Below, one piece after another: positions 14,695 to 25,951 of a stretch of 42,248 nucleotides of DNA. Source of the DNA: an uncultured Hyphomonadaceae bacterium (GTDB taxonomy: Bacteria > Pseudomonadota > Alphaproteobacteria > Caulobacterales > Hyphomonadaceae); the NCBI GenBank assembly GCA_938049795.1, contig CALLCD010000048.1, forward strand, positions 1 through 42,248, written 5' to 3'. Positions within the stretch are counted from its first letter, which is position 1. Every line of letters starts with the position of its first letter. The notes beneath the pieces were generated by a model. The model had not been told where the DNA came from. It saw nothing but the letters and a program-made list of their open reading frames with translations, and made no database searches. Made by a program: the position numbers and the translations under genes.

Positions 14695-15975
14695 TTGCGT
14701 CGTGTCGTTATTACTGGAATTGGTCTTGTCACCCCGCTTGCCGGAAATCGGGAAGCCTCATGGAAGCGCCTGATCGAAGGCAAATCGGGCGCCGGACCGA
14801 TTGATGTATTCGATACGACGGATATGCCGTGCAAGATCGCCTTTCAGGTGCCGTGGACTTCGGGACGCGGCGGCGGCGAGGGCGATGCAGAAGCGTTTGA
14901 TCCAGATACGGCGGCGTCCAAAAAAGAACGCCGTCGCATGGACGAGTTCATCCTCTATGCGATGGGCGCGGCAAATGAGGCGCTGGAAGACGCTGGTTGG
15001 ACCCCCGAGACTGACACCGAGCGTGAGCGGACGGGCGTTTTGATCGGGTCGGGCATTGGCGGTTTGCAGTCTATCGCCAATTCGCAAATGGATTTGCACA
15101 ATGGCGGGCCGCGTAAAGTCAGCCCGTTCTTTATTCCTTCGGCGCTGATCAATCTGGCGTCCGGTCAAGTGTCGATCAAGCATGGCCTTAAGGGGCCTAA
15201 TCATTCGGTGGTGACGGCCTGCGCGACGGGCGCGCATGCGATTGGCGATTCGGCGCGGATTATTCGCGATGGCGATGCAGATGTGATGCTGGCAGGCGGT
15301 GCGGAAGCGTCGATTTGCGAGCTGGGCATTGCTGGCTTCTGTGCGCTCAAAGCCATGTCTACGAAATATAATGATGACCCGACCAAAGCCTCGCGGCCCT
15401 ATGATGAGGGACGCGATGGATTTGTGATGGGCGATGGCGCGGGGATTCTCGTGCTGGAAGATTATGACCATGCCAAAGCGCGCGGCGCGACGATTTACGC
15501 CGAGATTGCCGGTTATGGTCTGTCGGGCGATGCGTATCACATCACCGCGCCGGCTGATGGTGCGGAAGGTGGACGGCGGGCGATGAAAATGGCGCTCGAC
15601 AATGCTGGTCTGTCGATTGGCGATGTCGATTATGTCAACACGCACGGCACGTCGACCCCGCTCGGGGATGAGGGCGAGATCCGCGCGTTGGAAAAACTGC
15701 TGGACGGCGACGCACCGAACTTTTCGCTGTCGGCAACGAAATCTGCCATCGGGCATTTGCTTGGTGCGGCGGGCGCTGTTGAAGCTGCGTTCTGTGCGCT
15801 GGCGATCCGCGATGGTGTGATGCCGCCGACGCTTAATCTTGCCAATCCGAGCTTTGAGACGGACATTGATCTGATCCCGAACATGGCGAAAAAAGGCAAT
15901 GTGAAAGTTGCGCTGTCGAACTCGTTTGGCTTTGGCGGGACGAATGCCGCCCTGGTGATGAAGGCCGTCGATTAA
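14695..15975 (+). CDS. fabF: Beta-ketoacyl-ACP synthase II
   Basis: 'RRVVITGIGLVTPLAGN', 'VTACATGAHAIGDSARII', 'NTHGTSTPLGD', 'NSFGFGGTNAALV'. Confidence 0.96.
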   Translation: MRRVVITGIGLVTPLAGNREASWKRLIEGKSGAGPIDVFDTTDMPCKIAFQVPWTSGRGGGEGDAEAFDPDTAASKKERRRMDEFILYAMGAANEALEDAGWTPETDTERERTGVLIGSGIGGLQSIANSQMDLHNGGPRKVSPFFIPSALINLASGQVSIKHGLKGPNHSVVTACATGAHAIGDSARIIRDGDADVMLAGGAEASICELGIAGFCALKAMSTKYNDDPTKASRPYDEGRDGFVMGDGAGILVLEDYDHAKARGATIYAEIAGYGLSGDAYHITAPADGAEGGRRAMKMALDNAGLSIGDVDYVNTHGTSTPLGDEGEIRALEKLLDGDAPNFSLSATKSAIGHLLGAAGAVEAAFCALAIRDGVMPPTLNLANPSFETDIDLIPNMAKKGNVKVALSNSFGFGGTNAALVMKAVD

Positions 15976-25393: not shown

Positions 25394-25569
25394 CAGGGGA
25401 ACTCCTCTTTCTTGAGCCGAACAATAGACGAGCGGACGCGAAGGGCAAGACTGACGCTGGGTTAGTGGGGGCTCGGGTGGCACGGTTGGCTAAGCGGCTT
25501 TGTAGGGCGTCCGGCAACAGGGGAGCGGAGCGCTGGAAACCTTTTGTTAACGATAAAGTTCTTGCGTGA

Positions 25570-25612
25570 GAACAAAAAGTGAATATGTTCACGGAAAGAA
25601 CGGAGAGTGAAC
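25570..25612 (+). promoter_or_regulatory. Candidate LexA (SOS) box pair
   Basis: GAAC-AAAAAGT-GAAT (25570-25584, one mismatch) and GAAC-GGAGAGT-GAAC (25598-25612, perfect), 28 bp apart, immediately 5' of the 114-aa ORF. Confidence 0.45.
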
Positions 25613-25951
25613 ATGCAAAAGACGATCAGATTTTTCGGAAGTACCGGCGCGGAGTATGAGTTTGCCGAAATGGCGGCAGAGGCCAATTGGGTCCATCATG
25701 CAGGGGTTGCGGTGTTTGCGCGGCGCGATGCGTATGGTTGGCGGGTGATCAGGATTACCGAACTGTCTGGCCGTGATCATGATGTCCGGCCGATCTGGGC
25801 GTTTCATGATGCCCAGCGTTATGGGGCGGACACGGTTTTTGTCAGCGCGGCGGTCTCCGCGGCGGCGCGTCGGGCTATGATCGAGGATATGGAAGCGGGG
25901 CTTGATCCGGTTCTGGCTTCATCGTCAAACGAACTGGCGCTGGCCGCCTGA
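25607..25951 (+). CDS. Protein of unknown function (114 aa)
   Basis: Open frame with GGAGAG ribosome-binding site; GTG 25607 or ATG 25613 start; no family recognised. Confidence 0.75.
   Translation: MNMQKTIRFFGSTGAEYEFAEMAAEANWVHHAGVAVFARRDAYGWRVIRITELSGRDHDVRPIWAFHDAQRYGADTVFVSAAVSAAARRAMIEDMEAGLDPVLASSSNELALAA

Follow-up and report, generated by a model that had tools for sequence, protein, structure and literature searches.

The small gene described here, carried by an incomplete Hyphomonadaceae genome (86% complete) with Hyphomonas and Henriciella among its named relatives, very probably belongs to the SOS response as a real and previously undescribed member. Judging from its sequence and those of its relatives, the product is likely, and we say so with good confidence, to be a LexA-repressed, damage-induced and quickly degraded pseudo-GIY-YIG protein that would act as a repair or checkpoint factor. 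The gene lies in a stretch of 42,248 nucleotides (hereafter the window), for which a preliminary description had put forward a candidate SOS-regulated protein; this proposal is now strongly supported by the operators of the orthologs and by the presence of the same motif at known SOS genes.

Both copies of the direct repeat GAAC-N7-GAAC that had been noticed ahead of the gene were confirmed (Table 1). The perfect copy, GAAC-GGAGAGT-GAAC (box B), abuts the ATG at 25613, and the Shine-Dalgarno GGAG sits inside its 7-bp spacer. The other, GAAC-AAAAAGT-GAAT (box A), has one mismatch and lies exactly 28 bp upstream of the perfect copy. The T of its GAAT half is common to the predicted -10 element, and GAAT may stand there instead of GAAC, in the window as in several relatives, because box A runs into the -10. 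In most Hyphomonas box A is a perfect site of the GAACATTATAGGAAC type, the GAAT-ending form being that of Henriciella-type relatives. The additional half-sites reported nearby do exist as GTTC at 25558 and 25587, but neither is conserved in orthologs; the first overlaps the conserved -35 region. Likewise, the 114-aa open reading frame is real and opens with a GTG at 25607 inside the box, but the ATG at 25613 is the likelier start and gives a protein of 112 aa. In many Hyphomonas (L043, L048, L053, L058, L161) a GAAC-N7-GAAC-N7-GAAC chain, three GAAC half-sites in 11-bp phase, lies across the -35/-10 spacer, next to box B.

Table 1. Coordinates of the predicted regulatory and coding features in the window.
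Feature	Position	Strand	Basis
CtrA-type site remnant, GAAA-CCTTTTG-TTAA, 2 mismatches	25536..25550	+	comparison with TTAA-N7-TTAA in orthologs
Predicted -35 element, CTTGCG	25561..25566	+	sequence inference; CTTGCG in most orthologs
LexA box A, GAACAAAAAGTGAAT, one mismatch	25570..25584	+	within the -35/-10 spacer, touching the -10
Predicted -10 element, TATGTT, 17-bp spacer	25584..25589	+	TATAGG or TATAxx there in orthologs
LexA box B, GAACGGAGAGTGAAC, perfect	25598..25612	+	perfect in 62/62 orthologs
Predicted SOS-controlled pseudo-GIY-YIG protein, 112 aa (P0001)	25613..25951	+	conservation; profile links to GIY-YIG relatives
Predicted degenerate GIY-YIG core, residues 30-102	25700..25918	+	model pLDDT 88, pTM 0.81
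Leu-Ala-Ala C-terminus, ssrA-like (ClpXP-type) putative degron	25940..25948	+	-AA in orthologs and homologs

Two outcomes had been set beforehand as grounds for rejecting the proposal, a motif that is not conserved upstream of orthologs and a LexA motif of a different form, and neither was observed: the motif was found with the right spacing in 62/62 Hyphomonadaceae orthologs and in 30/30 distant homologs from a second family of the order (f3). Within 120 bp of the start, each of the 62 distinct orthologs carries one or more perfect copies of GAAC-N7-GAAC, and 61 of them have two copies with no more than one mismatch each. The distant homologs carry two perfect copies (30/30); the f3 homolog L268 shows one perfect GAAC-N7-GAAC box. 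When spacers of 0-30 bp were compared, 7 was the only universal one. The protein is also strongly conserved among the orthologs. The tree gave no clear backing to the idea that LexA control arose just once for the genes of the Hyphomonadaceae and f3.

The reading of GAAC-N7-GAAC as the LexA form of this lineage is borne out at other SOS genes. Among same-family relatives, lexA promoters hold a perfect copy in 20 of 23 cases and a one-mismatch form in the remaining three; lexA gave no match above the cut-off in the 86%-complete host genome and was found in 23/23 relatives. The perfect sites of the host genome that were chosen for A/T-rich spacers are mostly at classical SOS genes: one lies between uvrA and ssb, one upstream of the gene identified as imuA by its position ahead of an ImuB-like polymerase and one before comM/yifB, and recN is preceded by two overlapping perfect copies. 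At recA the host genome has GAACAAATGTGGTAC, with one mismatch. The form of the lineage agrees with the LexA box consensus of Caulobacter, which is GTTC-N7-GTTC (PMC12700426). Some Henriciella-type lexA promoters (L062, L064, L073) present tandem one-mismatch boxes (GAACAGAACGAGAAT and its neighbours) and no perfect site. Upstream of the host mraZ (L186, C94:11596-11616), GTTCTCTTAATGTTC overlaps a perfect TTAA-N7-TTAA; mraZ was rejected as a further LexA target of the host genome, since most relatives do not keep its LexA-like box.

Taken alone the window is weak evidence, given that chance would produce about one perfect GAAC-N7-GAAC in every 42 kb: it holds two perfect copies against 0.98 expected and 28 one-mismatch copies against 29.6 expected. 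The motif at the gene is significant through its conservation across orthologs, not through window statistics. In the scan with a LexA PWM, which was trained on the host genome's own SOS sites and scored over 84,468 window positions, the gene's copies came 2nd and 11th, but not top, and they are weaker than the boxes of the orthologs. The top score in the window fell at 15126-15140 on the reverse strand (GAAGGAATAAAGAAC), inside overlapping long ORFs, and is probably due to chance.

In regards to the protein, the product had been said to have no recognised family, and indeed the window protein gave no match to Pfam, NCBIfam or PHROGs models, but profiles reveal a catalytically degenerate relative of the UvrC-type GIY-YIG domain. 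For hhalign we used alignments of the Hyphomonadaceae orthologs (A1), of housekeeping GIY-YIG paralogs (A2) and of the f3 homologs (A3). The A1-A3 comparison gave 97.7% (E 1.6e-12), A3-A2 gave 99.1% (E 1.5e-18) and A1-A2 gave 85% (E 5.8e-6), the homology between the orthologs and the paralog family covering the full domain with its N-terminal strands. Solved N-terminal GIY-YIG domains of UvrC are matched by A2 (2.5e-6) with the motif residues aligned, and 7/15 of the A2 members match PF01541. Used as a query, the distant homolog L192 hits excinuclease Cho across the GIY-YIG region (8.4e-6) and detects the Hyphomonadaceae orthologs at E ~1e-8. The consensus of a small GIY-YIG-like family, also used as a query, recovered real members together with the window protein (E=4.7e-4). 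By way of this chain of profiles, the product is predicted to be related to the UvrC/Cho-type GIY-YIG domain and to stand alone, as a single domain of 112 aa and not a multi-domain excinuclease like UvrC or Cho.

The predicted core has strands at residues 30-39 and 42-52, a helix at 59-69, a strand at 74-79 and a helix at 83-97, and this order of strands and helices fits the GIY-YIG topology. Foldseek searches with two models against the PDB returned no GIY-YIG structure and nothing significant, and one model gave no significant match against viral structures; these searches were counted neither for nor against the fold, which is assigned from the sequence profiles. Searching the sequences of the PDB with the A1 profile was discarded, having produced implausible matches only. 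An intact small UvrC-type GIY-YIG paralog occurs ~3-17 kb from recA in many Hyphomonadaceae (L242, L243, L244, L251, L252, L253), the host genome's own being L261 (C236), and no LexA box was found in 18/18 intact paralogs examined. There is also a third, divergent GIY-YIG-like paralog in f3 (GVYMFVKP...; L254, L255, L257, L269), with no LexA box.

The A2 paralogs have the GIY Tyr, the YIG Tyr, Lys, Arg and Glu all present in 15/15 members. In A3 the first Tyr, the Arg and the Glu are retained, and the YIG Tyr, Gly and Lys are replaced by Phe, Ser and Arg. In the Hyphomonadaceae SOS orthologs both catalytic Tyr, the Lys, the Arg and the Glu are gone (62/62), the window protein having A33, R47, T49, E50, D57 and I90 at the catalytic positions. 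Such a loss throughout the orthologs points to a pseudo-nuclease in the lineage of the window protein.

The Leu-Ala-Ala terminus stands at the end of a tail that is disordered in the model of the window protein (pLDDT < 50). An -AA ending is shared by 62/62 orthologs and 30/30 distant homologs (92/92), mostly after a hydrophobic residue, and the tails of these 92 proteins vary in length and sequence. Among background frames, 20/567 end in AA and 3/567 in hydrophobic-AA. The tmRNA tag ends in LLAA in the host genome and in LMAA in Hyphomonas-type relatives, and in Caulobacter a C-terminal AA can serve as a signal for turnover (PMC5324124). By its sequence, the -AA ending suggests a ClpXP turnover signal. 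In two Henriciella-type genomes (L243, L253) the housekeeping GIY-YIG paralogs likewise terminate in -KAA.

A second type of site, TTAA-N7-TTAA, which we take to be the CtrA form, lies further upstream in the orthologs, at -75 to -91 from the ATG and mostly at -78 to -82. It is perfect in 22/62 orthologs and has at most one mismatch in 57/62 (L032-L060 and L121-L169 among them). Perfect TTAA-N7-TTAA is rare, with 7-20 palindromic places per genome, and the target promoter was among these places in 3/5 genomes searched. A CtrA-type site near an SOS promoter suggests joint cell-cycle and SOS control, and LexA/CtrA overlap has been reported in Dinoroseobacter (PMC6473078). The near-fixed place and genome-wide rarity of the site would tie the gene to the cell cycle, and along with a small, LexA-controlled, degron-tailed protein that has lost its catalytic residues, this could fit a checkpoint protein of cell division or the cell cycle that is induced by the SOS response and takes the role of SulA or SidA, the nuclease fold being a mere scaffold. 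However, the protein has no divisome homology and, on reading its sequence, no membrane-like segment; the CtrA-type site of the window is degenerate, and the upstream regions of the distant (f3) homologs lack TTAA-N7-TTAA. A checkpoint protein of this kind appears unlikely, though it deserves serious weight.

An active, non-canonical nuclease with new catalytic residues is improbable. Across 30 sequences, W26, G31, W43, R44, D57, W62, R69, Y70, R86 and D92 are new invariant residues, and D57 and W62 are held in 61/62 orthologs of the larger set. The conserved W26, W43-R44, D57, W62, R69-Y70, R86 and D92 could mark either an active site or a surface for binding. However, the canonical residues are lost in all orthologs, mostly to non-equivalent ones, and we take the new invariant residues to reflect constraint on a changed function and not decay.

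The repeats could also be the operator of another regulator, or else a ribosome-binding-site motif of extended form, which would place the gene outside the SOS regulon. Box B does hold the Shine-Dalgarno and adjoin the ATG, and GAAC-N7-GAAC is not enriched genome-wide (51 perfect copies in the whole genome versus 86 for a reversed control pattern). Nevertheless, the exact N7 spacing in 92/92 sequences, the second box over the promoter, the drift of box B from -15 to -21 relative to the start codon of the orthologs with both GAAC arms intact, and the occurrence of this motif at lexA, uvrA/ssb, imuA, recN and comM make such a reading very improbable.

The gene was detected in 54/61 Hyphomonadaceae genomes, a sample of same-family genomes, and it is absent from seven complete Henriciella-type genomes; thus not every member of the family requires it. 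Many SOS genes sit on prophages, which would favour a mobile-element or anti-phage gene that borrowed its SOS control. GIY-YIG domains found in defence systems (PMC10688885) would favour the same. This idea was dropped as hardly credible, given the spread of the gene over the family, the downstream DUF885 neighbour kept in relatives, and zero matches in tblastn searches of phages and plasmids with the gene product.

Under the preferred reading, that of a LexA-controlled and short-lived pseudo-GIY-YIG factor, LexA on both boxes would block transcription in undamaged cells: box A lies over the -10 region, box B encloses the Shine-Dalgarno and abuts the ATG, and the pair is kept in nearly all orthologs. 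Upon damage, RecA-stimulated cleavage of LexA would lift the repression. The protein would then bind nucleic acid or a protein partner, with no cutting, and its most plausible role would be to modulate excision or recombination repair, or a step of the cell cycle, during damage. ClpXP would degrade it fast, and for this reason it would act only while damage persists, like RecN of E. coli. In its boldest form, which we offer tentatively and consider rather doubtful as a whole, a dead UvrC-type GIY-YIG domain would have become a transient SOS effector that joins LexA control to a CtrA-type site and is cleared by ClpXP. The Hyphomonadaceae would then have an undescribed damage checkpoint or repair-choice factor, and a sister family would have its partly intact counterpart.

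The alphaproteobacterial SOS response would thus gain a lineage-wide and unnamed gene, which is testable at its operator, its dead active site and its degron. A pseudo-nuclease under tight SOS control also suggests that GIY-YIG folds could serve as non-cutting repair regulators. Knockouts of ctrA have already been tried in Hyphomonas neptunium, a budding bacterium under study (PMC8116508), and tests of these predictions therefore look feasible in the genus. In the open literature we came across no previous description of a GIY-YIG-like protein under SOS control from this group, subscription journals lying outside the scope of the search, and no SOS GIY-YIG protein of Caulobacter in the literature searched.

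Compared with known systems, the gene has its operator form, GTTC-N7-GTTC, in common with the Caulobacter SOS regulon (PMC12700426), whereas ~97% of Caulobacter SOS promoters have one box, against two or more here. The housekeeping paralog (C236, A2) is homologous across the whole domain, but it has an intact GIY/YIG/Arg/Glu set and no LexA box and is often located 3-17 kb from recA. Cho is an SOS-induced UvrC homolog that is SOS-controlled in E. coli. The likeness of the window protein to Cho and to the UvrC N-terminal GIY-YIG domain is a GIY-YIG relationship through intermediate families; in contrast to both, it has only 112 aa and no further domains, and its catalytic residues are all lost. 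The nearest regulatory parallel is RecN of E. coli, which has several SOS boxes as well as a ClpXP signal at its C-terminus and is therefore present only during damage (PMC10714372), although RecN itself is an unrelated SMC-like ATPase of about 550 aa.
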